A program made the translations under genes and the position numbers. Of a stretch of 22,958 nt of DNA, positions 5,540 through 13,959 are shown piece by piece. Source of the stretch: a virus; IMG/VR virus record IMGVR_UViG_3300025759_000743, positions 1 to 22,958 of that record; one strand, 5' to 3'. Below the pieces are notes generated by a model, which saw nothing but the letters and a program-made list of their open reading frames with translations, was not told the DNA's origin and ran no database searches. Position 1 is the first letter of the stretch. Each line of letters starts with the position of its first letter.

Positions 5540-5744
5540 ATTTTTCTCTGACTTTAATACACTGGCAGTCTATAAAAAATAAATCACCATCTTTTTTTTC
5601 AATAGCATTAGCCATAGAATACACAGCAGTCTTAATGTTAGCTTCACATTTTTCTCTGCTTGACTCAGCTACAGGTGGAACCCAAGCACGACACATCTCA
5701 CCAGTAGCAAACGTAGCACAATACACCATAGCCATAATCCACAT
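5526..5744 (-). CDS. Small membrane or exported protein (72 aa)
   Basis: The ATG at 5744 overlaps the stop of the phosphoesterase gene (TAATG). A TTG at 5753 is a weaker alternative. The N-terminus is strongly hydrophobic (MWIMAMVYCATFATG) and is followed by a polar stretch with four more cysteines: one soon after the hydrophobic part (EMC), one in the middle (REKC), and a C-x-C pair near the C-terminus (DCQC). It looks like a signal peptide or single membrane anchor with a short periplasmic domain that could form disulfides. No clear lipobox is seen. Being last in the late operon, it could be lysis- or envelope-related, but there is no direct evidence. Confidence 0.6.
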   Translation of the reverse strand: MWIMAMVYCATFATGEMCRAWVPPVAESSREKCEANIKTAVYSMANAIEKKDGDLFFIDCQCIKVREKFKYQ

Positions 5745-6847
5745 TATAAACAAACCTTTATACGACTAACTTCACCCTCTTGTTTATGATATGTAATCCC
5801 CTGCATCTGTGACCTACTGCTGTAAGCATGGCTAGAAGCATAGGAGTCTTTACCTGTTACAGCTCTGAGTTGCTCAACAAGTACGCCACCTATCTCACGC
5901 ATCATTGTGTGGTGTAGGTGTCCAGTAAAATAAAATCTGTGTTTAGTTCTGCCCCATATCTCAGGCCAAGCATCAGCCATATGCAACACAAGCCTATCTG
6001 CTTTTGCTTTGTCTCCGTGGTGCGCGGCAATCATGACACTTCCAAACTCATGCACGAAGAAATCAGCAGCGGTTTGTTCCACAGTCACTCTAGTATTATT
6101 TTTGTAACGCTCTGCCATTGCAAACATCACAGCCAAATAAGAAGTCTCGTTGTGATTACCACGCAATACCCTGCATATAACTTGCTCATGTTTTTGCAAC
6201 GCACAATCAATCGCAGATGCCAACGCAGATATTGCACACCTCAGTGCATAAAAAAATCTTTCGGATACATCAAGTGGATGTTTACTTCTAGGAGTTTGTG
6301 CGTTGTTGTCATCAGCGTGGGTTAAATCACCAACATCTAATATCAAAGCATACTTAGAATTAGGTGAGCTAGATACACACTTAGCCATACCAGTTTTAAT
6401 TCTATCTACTGCAATGTCAGAGTTATACTCAGCACCTGTCTCTTCAGCGTGCGCTCTCATGCCTATGTGTGCATCAGCTATAGGGTAGAGTGTAAGTAAG
6501 TTGTCCTCAGAAAAGCTTGGGGATTTTATTATTGGGCAAAGAACAATACCATTTATTATATCTCGTATTGATTCCGCTATATCATTGGTATCAATCTTAT
6601 CTATTTCATTTCTAAAATATAAACTAACGTCGTCAGTCTTAATCCAGCCAGAGTGTACAGCATTTATGTTAGCCATACCTGTTTCAGTCATGGCATACTT
6701 AATACCATCATCAGCTTCTTCATATTTTTTTGCTGAATTAATTCTGTGTCTTAGAGCAGAGCGACTAATGCCTAAAGCCTTTGCCGCTTTGACTTGACTT
6801 CCGTATTTAACAACAGCATCAAGTGCTTCTTGTTGTTTTGATGTCAC
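5744..6847 (-). CDS. HTH-metallophosphoesterase fusion protein (367 aa)
   Basis: Residues 12-40 form a helix-turn-helix (GSQVKAAKALGISRSALRHR). Residues 118-330 hold a full calcineurin-type metallophosphatase set: DAHIG (D125, H127), GDLTH (D174), RGNHNE (N231, H232), AAHHGD (H276, H277) and TGHLHH (H310, H312). Such enzymes use two metal ions to cut phosphodiesters; Mre11/SbcD-like nucleases share the motifs, and HTH fusions of this type occur in T7-like and marine phages. It may be a DNA-end nuclease or nucleotide phosphodiesterase. The start is GTG 6847, overlapping the stop of the upstream microprotein gene (GTGA). It is translated with the late operon. Confidence 0.85.
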   Translation of the reverse strand: MTSKQQEALDAVVKYGSQVKAAKALGISRSALRHRINSAKKYEEADDGIKYAMTETGMANINAVHSGWIKTDDVSLYFRNEIDKIDTNDIAESIRDIINGIVLCPIIKSPSFSEDNLLTLYPIADAHIGMRAHAEETGAEYNSDIAVDRIKTGMAKCVSSSPNSKYALILDVGDLTHADDNNAQTPRSKHPLDVSERFFYALRCAISALASAIDCALQKHEQVICRVLRGNHNETSYLAVMFAMAERYKNNTRVTVEQTAADFFVHEFGSVMIAAHHGDKAKADRLVLHMADAWPEIWGRTKHRFYFTGHLHHTMMREIGGVLVEQLRAVTGKDSYASSHAYSSRSQMQGITYHKQEGEVSRIKVCL

Positions 6848-6927
6848 TTACGTTCCTTACAAATACACTTGTCTACACAAGCACATGTGTCTTTGCATAT
6901 ACATTTACCATTACATTTGCAAGTCAT
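6844..6927 (-). CDS. Cysteine-rich CxC-repeat microprotein, metallothionein-like (27 aa)
   Basis: The 27-residue protein has eight cysteines at 3, 5, 9, 11, 15, 17, 21 and 23: four C-x-C motifs exactly six residues apart, with lysine and aspartate between and a basic C-terminus. This is what a metal-cluster (metallothionein-like) peptide looks like; Zn, Cu or Cd binding is inference. ATG 6927 comes one base after the stop of the upstream gene (TAG-C-ATG) with AGGA about 7 nt upstream. Its TGA overlaps the GTG start of the phosphoesterase (GTGA). It fills the only gap in this operon. It is too short for routine gene callers and may be unannotated in related phages. Confidence 0.72.
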   Translation of the reverse strand: MTCKCNGKCICKDTCACVDKCICKERK

Positions 6928-6928
6928 G

Positions 6929-7603
6929 CTAATTTCCTACCAATGGATTGTTAAGTGCCTTCATAATTTTATTGTCTAAATTAGTTTCAAGTGTATCTAT
7001 TTTCTCATCAAGCCTATCTACCTTTGCATCAATTCTAATTTCAAATGCACTGATAATATCTCTGATTGTTTTAACATTAGCCGCGCTTGCAGTGTTAACA
7101 TCCTCAACTGATTTCCTATTGCGCTGCTCTTGTTTATCTAGGTTGTCTGTTTGTTTATCTAGCTGTGACTCAACAGAATTTTCTACATCTCTTAACTCAG
7201 TAGCTTGTTTATCTAGCTGGGATTCTAGCTGTGAGTTAATCAAAGTCATATCTTCTTTCAGCTCCATCTTAAGATCATACACATCTGTTTGTAGTGTAGC
7301 TACAATATCTTTAATACCATTGACCTGCTCTCTAACTACTTGGTTCATTAGATCATCAGCTTCTTTTAAATTGTTAAACTCAGTAGCTATAATCTCTAAC
7401 TCATTGTGTACCATAGTAATGTGGTTATCTATGTGGCTCAGATCAGGACTAACAAACTTAGCTATCTTAGATTCCATGTTAAGATAACGTTGGTAAACTT
7501 CAAAGCCACCCCACAAACCACCAATCAATGTACCAAGCAGCGGAACAATAAGTAATAACTTTGAGCCACCTACTTTAATTCCCTTGTATTCTACTTCTGC
7601 CAT
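6929..7603 (-). CDS. Membrane-anchored coiled-coil protein (224 aa)
   Basis: Residues 15-32 form one hydrophobic segment (KLLLIVPLLGTLIGGLWGG), preceded by a short basic cytoplasm-like part and followed by a long acidic coiled coil (about 43-220) rich in Leu, Asp, Lys and Glu in heptad-like spacing. The LDKQ motif recurs at 130-133, 148-151 and 155-158, encoded by three copies of a 12-nt direct repeat (7130-7141, 7151-7162, 7205-7216). The layout resembles spanin-like or cell-envelope stalk proteins, but no family is recognised. ATG 7603 has GGAGAG upstream and overlaps the exported-protein gene by 13 nt. Confidence 0.7.
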   Translation of the reverse strand: MAEVEYKGIKVGGSKLLLIVPLLGTLIGGLWGGFEVYQRYLNMESKIAKFVSPDLSHIDNHITMVHNELEIIATEFNNLKEADDLMNQVVREQVNGIKDIVATLQTDVYDLKMELKEDMTLINSQLESQLDKQATELRDVENSVESQLDKQTDNLDKQEQRNRKSVEDVNTASAANVKTIRDIISAFEIRIDAKVDRLDEKIDTLETNLDNKIMKALNNPLVGN

Positions 7604-9183
7604 GTGACTCTCCTATCGTACTGAGTATCTATTAATCTATCCATCTTAGCATTGCTTCCACCAAACATAACAAAAGAAGCCAAACCATTATCTAAAATCT
7701 CTGTGTCTTTAATTGTAGTAGTAGGAAAAAACCCTTGAGTATCCTGTATTACTTGCTGATCATCAAAGAAAGACTTAGTGTTACCTAGAACTTGCATTAC
7801 TAATAGGGTTTTTATCTGGTTAGTATTATCATACTTACCTTTATCACCCATCTTAGTTAGAATTTTTTTGGCGGCTGTCTGTTGTTTATCTTTTACAGTG
7901 TTACTCTTTTCCACTTTAGCGTCCTGCTTAGAATCTTGGTCTTCGCTCTTTGCTTCTTCCTGATTTTTTTCTGGTTCTTTGTTAGGTTTTGGCTCTTCTT
8001 GTTTAGTTTCTTTTTGTACATTCTCTACCGTTTCCTCTGGCTCTGGTTCAGATTCTGGTTGCGGCTCAGCTTTTGGTTTAGGTTCTAGCTTAACTTCTGC
8101 AACCTCCACCTCTTCTACTTCCATAGAGACTTCAACAACTTCTATCTCTACCTCTGCTTCTACACTGTCAAAGCTTTCTACTTCTGGTACATCAAATTCT
8201 TCTATGCTTACATCTATTTCAAGCTCAACACTTTCATAGTTAACCTCTACATCTGGTAAGTCTATAGGTATTATTTCTATCTCACCTTCTGGTGTGACAG
8301 TAATGTCATTGTTATCTAGTATGTTTTCTATTACCTCAATGACTGTATCATCTATTGTAACATCAAGAGCTACAAACAATTCCATTGTAGTTACATGGTA
8401 ATCAATAATAGTTTGGATAGCATTGTAGATAACATTAATACTTACGTTATCAAACAGCGCGTAGTTCATTGACACACCTAGATTTCTACCACCAATCTCA
8501 ACAGTCATAGAAGTTAAACCACCTGAAAAATCAAACCCACCAGTATATGTTTGAAACCCTGACTCAACACCACTAGCTGAGAGTATATCAGTACCAGAGA
8601 AAGCAACACCATCTTCATTGTTACCTGTGATGTGTATGTAAACACTATCTTCTTTATCGTTCTTATCTACATCTATAGAGTAGGTAGTTCTACCTCCCTT
8701 AGTTACAGGATTAGTAAGACTACTAGGAGGAGTAATGGTTTGGACATAAGTAGTACCAACATTTTTGACACCTTGTTTTGTTGTGAATGACCCTGTTCCG
8801 TTTATACCAGCACACCTGCCTGAGTTTTCTATGCCCCTACAAGCTTCACCAGTGGGCATACTAGCTGGCCCTTGCCCACCCCAGTCCTGATCCATATCGC
8901 CTTCGTACCGCTCTTGTACGAACTCTGAGTCGCTATGAAGTATATCACCACTGTCAACATTAGTTACTATTGTAGTTTCTACTGTCTCAGTAGTAGTAAT
9001 AATAGTAGTAACACCATCAGGTTCTTGGATAACCTCTTCCTCGATTAGAGTATCTATTATAACAGAAGTTTCTGATGGAGTGCATAACCCAACAACCCCT
9101 GATGGGCATGAATCTATAGTAACCTCATTACTATCTGCTAGCAGTGGGCTAGCTAAGAAAAGTAATGGGATTAACTGTTTCAT
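7591..9183 (-). CDS. Exported acidic phage protein with signal peptide (530 aa)
   Basis: The N-terminus (MKQLIPLLFLASPLLADSN) is a clear signal peptide; cleavage near residue 16 is expected. A Thr-rich linker follows, then a Cys-containing segment (C26, C34, C115, C124), a beta-rich region at about 140-275 (SVYIHITGNN, SMTVEIGGRNLG), and a very acidic low-complexity linker (about 285-435; Glu, Pro, Val, Lys). The compact C-terminal domain (about 440-530) ends in a GGSNAKMDRLIDTQYDR segment. I recall similar GGSD-type tails in marine phage proteins but know no function. Export by an infected cell is predicted; a surface, adsorption-blocking or virion role is inference. Confidence 0.75.
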   Translation of the reverse strand: MKQLIPLLFLASPLLADSNEVTIDSCPSGVVGLCTPSETSVIIDTLIEEEVIQEPDGVTTIITTTETVETTIVTNVDSGDILHSDSEFVQERYEGDMDQDWGGQGPASMPTGEACRGIENSGRCAGINGTGSFTTKQGVKNVGTTYVQTITPPSSLTNPVTKGGRTTYSIDVDKNDKEDSVYIHITGNNEDGVAFSGTDILSASGVESGFQTYTGGFDFSGGLTSMTVEIGGRNLGVSMNYALFDNVSINVIYNAIQTIIDYHVTTMELFVALDVTIDDTVIEVIENILDNNDITVTPEGEIEIIPIDLPDVEVNYESVELEIDVSIEEFDVPEVESFDSVEAEVEIEVVEVSMEVEEVEVAEVKLEPKPKAEPQPESEPEPEETVENVQKETKQEEPKPNKEPEKNQEEAKSEDQDSKQDAKVEKSNTVKDKQQTAAKKILTKMGDKGKYDNTNQIKTLLVMQVLGNTKSFFDDQQVIQDTQGFFPTTTIKDTEILDNGLASFVMFGGSNAKMDRLIDTQYDRRVTWQK

Positions 9184-9791
9184 TTTTTTGGATTAAATAA
9201 TTTTTTAAAGAACTCTTTAGCTTTTTTTCTACCTTCTTCTTGTGCGCGTAAAAGCTCTTGCTGTTCTCTTTCTAACTCTGCTGCTCTTTTTATTCTAAGT
9301 CTTGCCCTTTGTTCTTTAGCTAAAATAACTTTCATTTCAGCACCATCTGGTATTTGAGCTACGTCATTCTCCCATGCTTCTTTAGCATCAAGCCCAATCA
9401 ATCCTTTGTATGGAGGGAAAGTACCAGCAAACCACATAGCATCAAACACTCTTGGGTCTTGTGATAATAAAGCAACACTAGCTACTTTCATCCCCATTCC
9501 ATAGAGTGACCTAGCTAGTTTTATTCTTTCACAGTTTAAATCTACTGTTGTTTGTCCAGAGCTGATGCCAATTCTTAAAGATTGCACAGAGCCAGAGTAA
9601 CCAGACCTACATATGTCAGAGTTATTAACTACCACACTAGGTGAGTTAGCAGTAGGTGGAGTTTTATCTACTGAAGTAACTACTGTTGATGTAACAGTAT
9701 TAGTATCAGCGGCATATGCTAAAGGAACTAACACTATTAAAAATAATAGTGATACAAATACCCAGCTTATTACTAAAAAACTTTTCTTCAT
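9180..9791 (-). CDS. Exported phage protein with signal peptide and C-terminal coiled coil (203 aa)
   Basis: Residues 1-27 are a classic signal peptide (basic MKKS start, long hydrophobic core, AYA cleavage motif). The mature part opens with a Thr/Val-rich linker. A domain with only two cysteines, C61 and C87, probably disulfide-bonded, continues into LYGMGMKVASVALLSQDPRVFDAMW, a pattern I recall from marine phage proteins of unknown function. The C-terminal 50 residues are a basic coiled coil (LERE...EEGRKK...). ATG 9791 overlaps the previous stop (TAATG). The product is probably periplasmic. It pairs by position with the 530-residue exported protein, to which it is coupled by ATGA. Confidence 0.75.
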   Translation of the reverse strand: MKKSFLVISWVFVSLLFLIVLVPLAYAADTNTVTSTVVTSVDKTPPTANSPSVVVNNSDICRSGYSGSVQSLRIGISSGQTTVDLNCERIKLARSLYGMGMKVASVALLSQDPRVFDAMWFAGTFPPYKGLIGLDAKEAWENDVAQIPDGAEMKVILAKEQRARLRIKRAAELEREQQELLRAQEEGRKKAKEFFKKLFNPKK

Positions 9792-10036
9792 TAGGATGCA
9801 GTGTAACCTTTACCTGCTGTAATTGCATTGGTGGTTGCTGTCATAGACTCGCTACCCCAATCTGACTTAGCTTTCATTAGCTCAAGGTGCGCTACATTTC
9901 TGTCTACACAATCTTGTCTTTCTTCTTTTGCTTCATCAGCCATACGGTTACCAGCTATCACAGCAGTAATAAGGTCTATTGAGTGACCCATTGCTGTGTA
10001 GTCTTGTGCTAGTTCTTCTGTTGTTCTGTCTGTCAT
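9791..10036 (-). CDS. Small phage protein downstream of the tail fibre (81 aa)
   Basis: The 81-residue soluble protein starts at ATG 10036 with AAGGA about 8 nt upstream, five bases after the fibre gene stop. The motif DCVDRNVAHLELMKAKSDWGSE (about residues 42-63), followed by a short Thr-Ala rich helix, resembles small proteins I recall near fibre genes in other marine phages. Function is unknown; an association with the fibre, such as assembly, would be inference from position. Its stop overlaps the start of the exported 203-residue protein (TAATG). Confidence 0.7.
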   Translation of the reverse strand: MTDRTTEELAQDYTAMGHSIDLITAVIAGNRMADEAKEERQDCVDRNVAHLELMKAKSDWGSESMTATTNAITAGKGYTAS

Positions 10037-10041
10037 TTTAT

Positions 10042-10413
10042 TTATCCTTCTAGTGTTGCTATGCGAGCGAGTGCCGCATCTAATGCTGTTGATAATTCTT
10101 GTACTGCTTTAGTTAATACTGGTATTAATGCTGCTTCTGCTACTTCTTGAGAGCCATCTTCTCTGTCATCCCACAATTTAAAACCATCTTTAATGCCGCT
10201 ATCAGCATCTATAGCGGTCTTAACTTCTTGAGCAATAAAGCCGTGGTTAGTGTTTGAGTTTTTAAAGACATCTGTTGAGCCAGCTTTATAAGCTCTAAAT
10301 GTTTCGGGAAGTTCTCCAAGATTTTTATACTTAAAGGTACGAGGTTTTAAAGCATTAATAAATGACAACCCTGCTGTAGAATCTACAATGTCTTTTTTGT
10401 AGCGTTCATCTGA
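10042..10413 (-). other. Peptidase S74 / intramolecular chaperone domain of the fibre
   Basis: The domain opens with SDERYKK, has the PRTFKYKNLG and NHGFIAQEV landmarks, and ends in a short helical tail (ALDAALARIATLEG). In the family a Ser-Lys pair cleaves the chaperone from the mature fibre after trimer folding. Cleavage before S1183 would leave a mature fibre of 1182 residues. Residues match by pattern; cleavage is inferred. Confidence 0.88.
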
Positions 10414-13400
10414 TACTGTTGACCATGTTGTATTACCGTGTGCTGCTCTAATATCATTAGCACCAACCCCAAGTGTTGTGTAACTAGCTTCTGCGGCTAT
10501 ATCATGACCAAAACCATTTGCGCTACTTGTACCGACTGCTGTTGTATCAGTGTAAGAACCTACGAGAGTATTTTCGCTACCTGTAGTAGTAAGTGTGCTA
10601 TGTGAGGCTGAGTTATAACCTATATAAACATTTGCGCTACCTGTGGTGACTTGACTTCCAGCACCATAACCATGACATGTGTTATAGTCTGCGTCTGTAA
10701 GATTACTTAAAGCATAAGCTCCACTTGCGGCATTGCTATGTCCAACAGTGCAATCTTCTAGTGCCTTGTATCCAACAGCAGAGTTGCCAGCAGCAGTCGT
10801 GTTATTGCCTAATGCAAGGTAGCCAACAGCTACGTTATTAGCACCCGTTGTGTTGTCAAACATTGCTTGATATCCCACCGCAACATTAGTTCCAGCGGTA
10901 GTATTTTTATCTAAAGCATTAGTACCGACAGCAGTGTTTTGACTCCCTGTTGTGGTGTAATACATTGCCGCAGTTCCCAAGGCAACATTCTGTGTTCCAG
11001 TCGTGTTTGTAAATAAAGCATCTCTGCCGACTGCTGTGTTATGGTCTGCTGTAGTGGTATTTGCACCTGCGCCCTTACCAAAGAAAGAGTTGTCATCTCC
11101 TGTAGTTAAATCTGTACCAGCACTCAATCCAACAACAGTATTCTGTGCGCCTGTTGTGATTGCATCTCCAGCTTCAGTTCCAATAGCTACGTTTCCTGAC
11201 GATGTGGTAGCAGAGGCAAGAGCAGCAACTCCTAATGCTGTATTGTTTTGACCAGTTGTAAGCGCACCTCCTGCATTGTACCCCACAATCGCATTCCAAC
11301 TACCTGTAGTCATAGCATCACCTGCAAGACCACCAATTAGCGTGTTTTGTACGCCTGTGGTTACTGCATGACCCGAATTATACCCCACTGCTGTGTTGTT
11401 AGACGCTGTGGTGTTTGCGGTTAATGCCCTACTTCCTAAAGCGGTGTTATACGATCCCGTCGTAGTGCCACTTAAAGACCAATACCCTAAGGAGGCATTT
11501 TCTAAACCTGTTGTAATCGCATCACTTGCTAGTGCACCCACTGCGGTATTTTGTGCACCTGTAGTGTTTGCTCCTAAAGTTTCAAAACCAACTGCTGTGT
11601 TATTACTTGCCGTAGTATTAGCATACATAGCACCCTTACCTATTGCTGTGTTACTTGCGCCTGTACTGTTAGTCTGTAGTGTCTGTCTACCAACTGCTGT
11701 ATTGTTATCTGCTGTAGTATTTCCGTGTAAAGCACCCCAACCCACACCTGTATTGCTAGCACCTGTGGTGTTACTTGCTAATGACTGACTAAAGGCTGTG
11801 TTATAAGCACCTGTAGTGTTAGCATATAAAGCACCTTTTCCAACTCCTGTATTATAAGAAGCTGTGGTATTCGCCTGTAAAGCATCCTTTCCAACTGCAA
11901 CATTATCCGCACCAGTCGTAATAGAATCACCAGCAAGACCACCGATTAGGGTGTTGTTTGTGCCTGTGGTTACTGCATTACCTGCGGCAAAACCTACTGC
12001 TACGTTATAGTTGTCAGTAGCCGATGTGAAGTTTTGTGTACTTAAAGCTCCGTATCCAAGAGCAACTGCTCTGCTACCTAATGTATCAACGGCTAAAGAG
12101 TCATAACCTAGTGCTACATTATAATCAGCATCAGTAAGTGCATCACCAGCTAGGCCACCGATGAGGGTGTTTCTTACGCCTGTGGTTACGTTTAGACCTG
12201 AGTTATGCCCTACTGCAACATTAAAAGTATCTGTAGAAGTTGTAAAGTTTTGATTCCCTAGTGAATTATAACCTACTGCTACAGATTTACTACCTTTAGT
12301 ATCACCACTTAAAGCCCATCTACCTATAGCTACATTGTAATCTGCATCTGTAAGGGCATCTCCTGCGGCAAATCCCATTAACGTATTCTCTACACCAGTC
12401 GTTATTGCATAACCAGCATCGTATCCAATGGCTGTATTTCCAGCATTTACATCCCCTGCGTTTTGAGTAAGCAATGCTCTATACCCAACCGCAGTAGACC
12501 TAGAGGCAGTATCTTCTGTACTTAAAGCTCCATAACCTATTGCTGTATTGTTATCACCAGTAGTAATCGCAGTACCTGCTTCGTCACCCACAGCCACGTT
12601 GTAGTTACCGCCAGATGCTATTGAGTTACCTGCGTTAACACCTGCTCTAAAGTTAGATGTACCTGCTGAAGCAGTAATAATATCTGCACCATCTGCAAAG
12701 GTAACGTCTGCCGCAAAGTTAGCCGCACCATCTACATCTATAACATCAAGGTTACTTATTCCATCAATGTCTATGTTGCCAGATATGTCTAAACTTGCCG
12801 CCGCTATCTCACCAGATGCAGTAAGAGTAGTTATGTTAGGATTAGCACCACTACCAGCTAGCGTTGCCATGTCAGCAATTACAGTGCTAGTAGCAAGTAA
12901 ACTTAAATCCTCTACGATTGCACTTGTTGCTAGTAAATTTAGGTCAGTAACTATGTCGCTTGTTGCCAAGGTATTTAAATCACTTACAATGTCAGATGTG
13001 GCTAGTGTGTTTATATCACTTACTATATCAGAGGTAGCTAAGAGATTAAGGTCAGATACTATATCAGCAGTAGCTAAAGTATTTAGGTCAGACACTATGT
13101 CTGAAGTTGCTAAGAGAGCCATGTCAGCAACTATATCTGTGGTAGCTAGTATGTTTAAGTCAGCAACAATAGCACTTGTAGCTAGTGTATTCATATCAGC
13201 AATAACATCTGATGTAGCAAGCAATGCCATGTCAGCTATTACATCAGTAGTACCAAGCAATGCCATATCAGCAATAACATCACTAGCTGCTAAAGCATTT
13301 ACATTAGATATTGCACCTGCAACAGCCGTTACATTACTAGCAACTCCAGCTACTGTTGTTACATTACTAGCTATACCAGCAACTGTTGTAACATTAGCTG

Positions 13401-13959
13401 CTATACCTGCTGTTGTGTTTATATTAGCTGTAATTGCAGAGAGAGAGTTAACGTTAGCTATAGTAGGGCCAACTTCTGCTGCGCCTGTACTCGCATTAAA
13501 GCCTAGAACAGTACCTTTTCTTGACGCTACAAGCGGTAACTCCATACTAACTGCTGTATCATCATCTGCTAGGTGTAAAGCTCGATCAATAGTATCATCA
13601 TTATCAGCTTGAATTGCTATAAATTTATCTAGCTCTGTGTTTAATGTACTAATAGCAAATGGCCCAGATGCAGGAAAGTCTGTTGTTCTAGCTAATGCTA
13701 TTGATCTTGTTATAACTACTGTACTGCCACCACTTATCCCAGTTACTGTATTACCAGATGTTGTGTTTATTGTCCCTGTTGTTCCGTCACCGCCTGATAC
13801 TGTATAGTGTGTTGCTATTGTTTTCTTAGTACCATCTACATAAAAATTAAGATCAGCTTCAGCGTAAAACTCAAACGGCACAGTAAATGCTGTTTGACTT
13901 GCGCCTTCATTAACCGAATAAGATATACGCGGTGTGTTTTCTGATAAACTAATAGTCAT
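10042..13959 (-). CDS. Tail fibre protein with tandem repeats and S74 auto-chaperone (1305 aa)
   Basis: The adsorption fibre of the virion. Residues 1-135 resemble the T7 gp17-type N-terminal domain that attaches to the tail (FEFYAEADLNFYVDGTKK, RTTDFP, DKFIAIQADNDDTIDRAL). Then come 10-residue repeats (about 169-220), twelve 12-residue repeats (223-366), and about 40 repeats of about 17 residues of the NTAVGYxAL type (about 450-1135), likely a trimeric beta-roll shaft. Residues 1183-1305 are an S74 intramolecular chaperone: S1183 and K1188 in SDERYK are the expected self-cleavage pair. The order after the internal virion genes matches T7. GAGGT precedes ATG 13959. Confidence 0.9.
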   Translation of the reverse strand: MTISLSENTPRISYSVNEGASQTAFTVPFEFYAEADLNFYVDGTKKTIATHYTVSGGDGTTGTINTTSGNTVTGISGGSTVVITRSIALARTTDFPASGPFAISTLNTELDKFIAIQADNDDTIDRALHLADDDTAVSMELPLVASRKGTVLGFNASTGAAEVGPTIANVNSLSAITANINTTAGIAANVTTVAGIASNVTTVAGVASNVTAVAGAISNVNALAASDVIADMALLGTTDVIADMALLATSDVIADMNTLATSAIVADLNILATTDIVADMALLATSDIVSDLNTLATADIVSDLNLLATSDIVSDINTLATSDIVSDLNTLATSDIVTDLNLLATSAIVEDLSLLATSTVIADMATLAGSGANPNITTLTASGEIAAASLDISGNIDIDGISNLDVIDVDGAANFAADVTFADGADIITASAGTSNFRAGVNAGNSIASGGNYNVAVGDEAGTAITTGDNNTAIGYGALSTEDTASRSTAVGYRALLTQNAGDVNAGNTAIGYDAGYAITTGVENTLMGFAAGDALTDADYNVAIGRWALSGDTKGSKSVAVGYNSLGNQNFTTSTDTFNVAVGHNSGLNVTTGVRNTLIGGLAGDALTDADYNVALGYDSLAVDTLGSRAVALGYGALSTQNFTSATDNYNVAVGFAAGNAVTTGTNNTLIGGLAGDSITTGADNVAVGKDALQANTTASYNTGVGKGALYANTTGAYNTAFSQSLASNTTGASNTGVGWGALHGNTTADNNTAVGRQTLQTNSTGASNTAIGKGAMYANTTASNNTAVGFETLGANTTGAQNTAVGALASDAITTGLENASLGYWSLSGTTTGSYNTALGSRALTANTTASNNTAVGYNSGHAVTTGVQNTLIGGLAGDAMTTGSWNAIVGYNAGGALTTGQNNTALGVAALASATTSSGNVAIGTEAGDAITTGAQNTVVGLSAGTDLTTGDDNSFFGKGAGANTTTADHNTAVGRDALFTNTTGTQNVALGTAAMYYTTTGSQNTAVGTNALDKNTTAGTNVAVGYQAMFDNTTGANNVAVGYLALGNNTTAAGNSAVGYKALEDCTVGHSNAASGAYALSNLTDADYNTCHGYGAGSQVTTGSANVYIGYNSASHSTLTTTGSENTLVGSYTDTTAVGTSSANGFGHDIAAEASYTTLGVGANDIRAAHGNTTWSTVSDERYKKDIVDSTAGLSFINALKPRTFKYKNLGELPETFRAYKAGSTDVFKNSNTNHGFIAQEVKTAIDADSGIKDGFKLWDDREDGSQEVAEAALIPVLTKAVQELSTALDAALARIATLEG
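10555..12612 (-). repeat. About 40 degenerate 51-nt repeats coding NTAVGYxAL units
   Basis: In-frame repeats of mostly 17 residues carry a core of Asn-Thr-Ala-Val-Gly followed by an Ala-Leu or Ala-Gly pair and an Asn-Thr-Thr turn. Some units are longer, with Asp-Ala-Asp or Phe-Thr inserts. Larger blocks also recur, such as LIGGLAGDALTDADYN. The units are diverged at DNA level, so this is an old, folded array and not a fresh expansion. Confidence 0.85.
12862..13293 (-). repeat. Twelve 36-nt tandem repeats coding LATSDIVSDLNT-type units
   Basis: Residues 223-366 of the fibre are twelve consecutive 12-residue units with a Leu-Ala-Thr-Ser-Asp-Ile/Val-Val/Ile core and Asp-Leu/Met near the end. 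The DNA copies are diverged but keep register without gaps. The regular Leu/Ile/Val spacing suggests a coiled or beta-helical shaft segment. Confidence 0.85.
13300..13455 (-). repeat. 30-nt tandem repeats coding NVTTVAGIAS-type units
   Basis: Residues 169-220 are about five 10-residue units built on Asn-Val-Thr-Thr-Val-Ala-Gly-Ile-Ala-Ser, a repeat known from many phage tail fibres. They adjoin the 12-residue array directly. Confidence 0.8.

Follow-up and report, generated by a model that had tools for sequence, protein, structure and literature searches.

A strictly conserved phage microprotein with four CxC pairs, a candidate metal-thiolate peptide encoded in a late operon

The window analyzed in this work (the whole 22,958-nucleotide stretch of viral DNA, IMG/VR record IMGVR_UViG_3300025759_000743) contains a 27-codon frame plus TGA (positions 6844–6927, minus strand) that is a real gene, conserved in 36 other IMG/VR contigs. 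Its product, MTCKCNGKCICKDTCACVDKCICKERK, has cysteines at residues 3, 5, 9, 11, 15, 17, 21, and 23, that is, four C-x-C pairs with a period of six. The family appears to be undescribed and, as far as searched, restricted to phages. Judging from composition and cysteine pattern, the microprotein is probably a cytosolic metal-thiolate peptide that resembles a minimal metallothionein and is made late in infection.

Translation of positions 6927–6844 confirms the eight cysteines and exact six-residue period that had been reported in a first-pass annotation of this DNA (the strand, minus, was absent from that annotation). The translational signals that it listed are also present: the gene upstream, which encodes a 224-residue protein with an N-terminal transmembrane (TM) segment and a coiled coil (6929–7603, minus strand), ends with TAG (6931–6929), followed by a single base (6928) and the ATG of the microprotein gene (6927–6925); a ribosome-binding site, AGGA (6935–6938, minus strand), is contained in the final codons of that gene, at a distance of 7 bases from the ATG; and the stop codon, TGA (6846–6844), overlaps the GTG start codon (6847–6845) of the next gene to give GTGA. 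The latter gene (5744–6847, minus strand) encodes a 367-residue HTH and calcineurin-like metallophosphoesterase (PHROG 704). By chance, the eight-cysteine pattern would be expected ∼1.6e-7 times in the window (both strands counted); it was observed once. The four 18-nucleotide units of the gene have only 3–7 of 12 bases in common outside the cysteine codons, so they are not a recent tandem repeat.

We searched IMG/VR with fixed DNA patterns and a profile-based search; the four-repeat DNA pattern alone returned mostly low-complexity noise in other frames, so the start codon or the lysines were kept fixed in later scans. The homologs in the 36 contigs share the signature CKCxxKC[IV]C in frames of 27–30 residues; removing the alanine requirement from the pattern returned the identical set. 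The contigs are partly redundant, and the independent lineages are fewer than 36: they provide 21 unique nucleotide sequences, encoding 18 unique microproteins, in at least five gene contexts. Homologous loci with a disrupted frame or altered cysteine spacing, which the first-pass annotation had said would speak against the gene, were looked for and none was found: all eight cysteines occur with identical spacing in 36/36 contigs, relatives with altered spacing being reachable by these patterns and the profile alone.

The substitution pattern is that of a protein-coding sequence under constraint. In pairwise counts with no tree correction, pN/pS is 0.185 for the 21 unique sequences; for the group linked to the phosphoesterase, it is 0.241 in the microprotein frame, whereas the two alternative frames have values of 1.56 and 1.53 (the phosphoesterase gene itself has a value of 0.10). 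Both TGT and TGC are used in seven of the eight cysteine columns, and the encoded amino acid never differs. Residues K4, K8, I10, A16, K24, R26, and K27 are also invariant; purifying selection acts on these as well as on all eight cysteines. The hypergeometric probability that all eight cysteine columns are found among the 15 invariant columns of 25 is 0.006. AGGA, AAGGA, or GAGG is located 5′ of the gene in every distinct upstream context. A chance frame or non-coding element might be suspected because the frame is very short and the CxCx3 pattern also occurs in other contigs, in antisense frames of low complexity; however, the purifying selection is specific for the frame, the spacing is kept throughout, and ribosome sites and coupling recur in different contexts, so we regard this explanation as extremely improbable, the frame-specific substitution pattern having already refuted it. 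The pattern scan and substitution-ratio check that had been proposed thus identify a conserved gene (pN/pS 0.19–0.24), and its description as a gene of the late operon is borne out by the frame-specific selection, the conserved spacing, and the ribosome sites.

The suggestion that the family might be undescribed agrees with the database searches. No match above the curated cut-off was found for the microprotein in Pfam or NCBIfam, and no match was found in PHROGs for any member up to an E value of 10; strictly conserved phage genes of fewer than 30 codons escape family databases, as this one shows. The arthropod metallothioneins (Pfam Metallothio_5) contain CxCx3CxC stretches, and theirs is the sole Pfam family of related meaning that was touched, by 1 of 10 members at a non-significant E value of 0.61. 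The PDB provided no significant match; IMPI alpha, a plant defensin, and TIM13 were rejected as relatives because they are insignificant matches in cysteine composition. With tblastn, nothing was found in named phages, and the one match in plasmids, inside drt3a, was insignificant (E value of 0.2); the genomes of 84,980 prokaryote species, scanned by pattern, gave nine matches, all repeat noise. HTVC027P, HTVC023P, 023Pt_psg01, DSL-LC04, MEP301, and HTVC115P, which are relatives by portal, tail, or coiled-coil proteins, do not have the microprotein. No description of a phage-encoded metallothionein was found in the literature searched; the one phage paper examined for the word metallothionein uses it in a table that lists bacterial genes (PMC3974807).

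The size, composition, and cysteine spacing of the microprotein, together with its lack of a signal sequence, fit a cytosolic metal-thiolate peptide of the metallothionein type. Members of the metallothionein class are very small, with 15–35% cysteine, CxC pairs, few or no aromatic residues, and every cysteine conserved among homologs; the 27-residue microprotein has all of these features, with 30% cysteine, no aromatic residue (one tyrosine is present in some relatives), no histidine, and seven lysines and arginines vs three aspartates and glutamates. The claim that it is a minimal metallothionein or metal-cluster peptide therefore holds with respect to composition but not with respect to membership in a known metallothionein family (Pfam, NCBIfam), and the lack of significant homology to any such family counts against it. 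The AlphaFold2 model of the apo form is a low-confidence coil (mean pLDDT 60), as would be expected for an apo-thionein, yet this is not diagnostic.

The fungal copper metallothioneins of the Neurospora crassa type are ∼25 residues in length, rich in serine and glycine, and have seven cysteines in CxC pairs. The phage peptide resembles these in its size, cysteine content (∼30%), repeated CxC pairs, and lack of aromatic residues and of a transport signal; however, it has eight cysteines, a strict period of six, and many lysines, and homology is not detectable. The bacterial metallothioneins SmtA/BmtA (Pfam Metallothio_Pro) and MymT are longer than the phage microprotein, with different cysteine spacing, and are host genes, whereas the microprotein has no Pfam or NCBIfam match. 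Nevertheless, they resemble the microprotein as we picture it: rich in thiols and with CxC pairs, they bind metal in the prokaryotic cytosol, and coordination of Cu(I) by the CxC pair is described for the Synechococcus metallothionein and for MymT (PMC6337107).

Metallothioneins bind several d10 metal ions in thiolate clusters. By analogy with this established chemistry, from which we infer metal binding as well as the metal, stoichiometry, and benefit, the microprotein would be made late in infection from a small cistron coupled to the TM coiled-coil gene. Eight reduced cysteines, in four CxC pairs with three residues between them and lysines beside the thiols, would wrap one small soft-metal cluster, putatively of Cu(I) or Zn(II), and the peptide would most likely buffer free metal and thiol-reactive stress shortly before lysis. 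If metal is bound, the microprotein would rank with the smallest known metal-thiolate proteins; it would be easily made by synthesis and would give direct access to metal handling as a phage lyses its host. Two observations fit less well: the strict conservation of I10, A16, K24, R26, and K27 exceeds the needs of simple metal buffering and may point to a specific partner or a fixed fold, and the conserved position among genes for membrane and lysis proteins (vide infra) is not required of a pure detoxification peptide and argues against one.

In all contexts, the TM coiled-coil gene is upstream of the microprotein gene, either as its nearest neighbor or with one to three small TM genes between them; the gene on the 3′ side differs. 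In loci of the window type, the order is TM coiled-coil, microprotein, HTH-metallophosphoesterase; in a second type (L181, L201, L217, and L256), the microprotein gene is followed by genes for small basic proteins. In the others, lysis genes follow: the coiled-coil gene, an 80-residue TM protein, the microprotein, a 3TM-holin-like protein, and a GH108 endolysin (L260 and L264); the coiled-coil gene, the microprotein, a holin-like protein, and a phage-lysozyme endolysin (L261 and L263); or the coiled-coil gene, three small TM proteins, the microprotein, a basic protein, a 3TM holin, and a GH108-like endolysin (L265 and L266). The 3TM-holin assignment is no more than likely, the Pfam matches being below the curated cut-off. 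The phosphoesterase is, therefore, not a constant neighbor. The idea that the microprotein buffers metal for this adjacent two-metal enzyme is not supported by the comparison: the gene for the same or a near-identical peptide is elsewhere followed by genes for small basic proteins or by holin and endolysin genes, and one peptide, MTCKCKDKCICKESCACIYKCICKERK, is encoded 5′ of the phosphoesterase in some contigs and 5′ of non-phosphoesterase genes in others, which argues against dedicated service.

The portal of the L266 phage is related to those of the pelagiphages HTVC023P and HTVC027P, and the nearest relatives of the tail protein of the window phage are in Vibrio phage ZCVPP1 and Methylophilales phage MEP301; thus, the microprotein occurs in unlike phage backbones. 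Identity to the window is 39–67% for the coiled-coil proteins and 70–93% for the microproteins. Most coiled-coil relatives do not have the microprotein, and several have TM, holin, and endolysin genes in its place. The microprotein gene is therefore an accessory one that occupies a fixed position in a late module.

This placement also bears on a different function, that of an accessory to the lysis module: the microprotein, with or without metal, would act on or with the membrane (the TM coiled-coil protein, the holin) and time lysis, the cysteine cluster being either a redox switch or a knot of zinc or copper with a structural role. In five loci (L260, L261, L263, L264, and L265/266), its gene is located between the coiled-coil gene (adjacent to it or separated from it by one, two, or three small TM genes) and a 3TM holin with a GH108 or phage-lysozyme endolysin, coiled-coil relatives without it have the holin and endolysin at that position, and its fixed non-cysteine residues and net positive charge would suit a partner. 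However, no holin or endolysin follows it in the window or in the L217/L256/L181 group, and it is missing from most coiled-coil relatives; by inspection, no microprotein has a hydrophobic segment, that is, the TM segment or lipoprotein signal of a holin or spanin. We consider the lysis-accessory function unlikely but keep it alive because non-cysteine residues are strictly conserved and the gene repeatedly lies next to lysis genes. That a phage-specific metallothionein family, traveling as a cassette beside the TM coiled-coil gene, controls the state of metal as the cell lyses is a doubtful extension of the metallothionein-like function; if true, phages would shape how bacterial copper or zinc is held or released at burst.

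A small, cationic, thiol-rich, and strictly conserved peptide could instead strip zinc from, or bind to, a host zinc enzyme (e.g., RNA polymerase or primase), and small phage proteins are described as acting through binding to host proteins (review, PMC11323111). Yet, the gene belongs to the late operon and is co-directional with the genes for tail and exported proteins; host takeover would be expected earlier, which makes this role improbable.

The same operon encodes exported proteins upstream of the microprotein, including proteins of 530 residues (7591–9183, minus strand; no Pfam or PHROG match) and 203 residues (9180–9791, minus strand; PHROG 20531, unknown function), and a disulfide-bonded peptide that functions with these neighbors outside the cytosol had been suggested. 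By inspection, however, none of the 18 distinct microproteins has a signal peptide or hydrophobic stretch (their N-termini are M-T-C or similar), and densely spaced CxC pairs favor metal clusters over native disulfides; the periplasmic location is not supported, and we judge a disulfide-bonded peptide very improbable. A RiPP precursor was also rejected, no modifying enzyme being recognized among the neighboring genes.

Several other features were noticed. No recognizable holin or endolysin was noticed in positions 1–22,958 of the window; relatives of the module have both right after the microprotein. Before the coiled-coil gene, positions 7591–10,036 encode a series of exported proteins, none with a Pfam match, to which relatives add a lipoprotein and more exported proteins; this series is a conserved, envelope-directed phage module of unknown role. 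Positions 10,042–13,959 encode a 1305-residue tail-fiber-like protein with many GNNTAVG-type repeats and a C-terminus that, by eye, resembles an S74-type chaperone.

Other CxC-rich microproteins were also observed. Like the window peptide, they are small and encoded near genes for TM or exported proteins; unlike it, they are acidic, with other spacing, and are non-homologous by eye. One, MLENCIACGCDPCICDDECDSCGA, is a 24-residue acidic frame just 5′ of an exported-protein gene in phages that have the coiled-coil gene but not the window peptide (L319, ∼1649–1723, and L317). The others, MSKMCSCRIGGICICWAIQYCNC... and MSCECEIECICEEGCECELDTCECITC..., are adjacent to one another, right after a small one-TM gene (L171, 12,458–12,794; L224, 8500–8836; and L168, minus strand), and this pair may be an independent metal-thiolate family.
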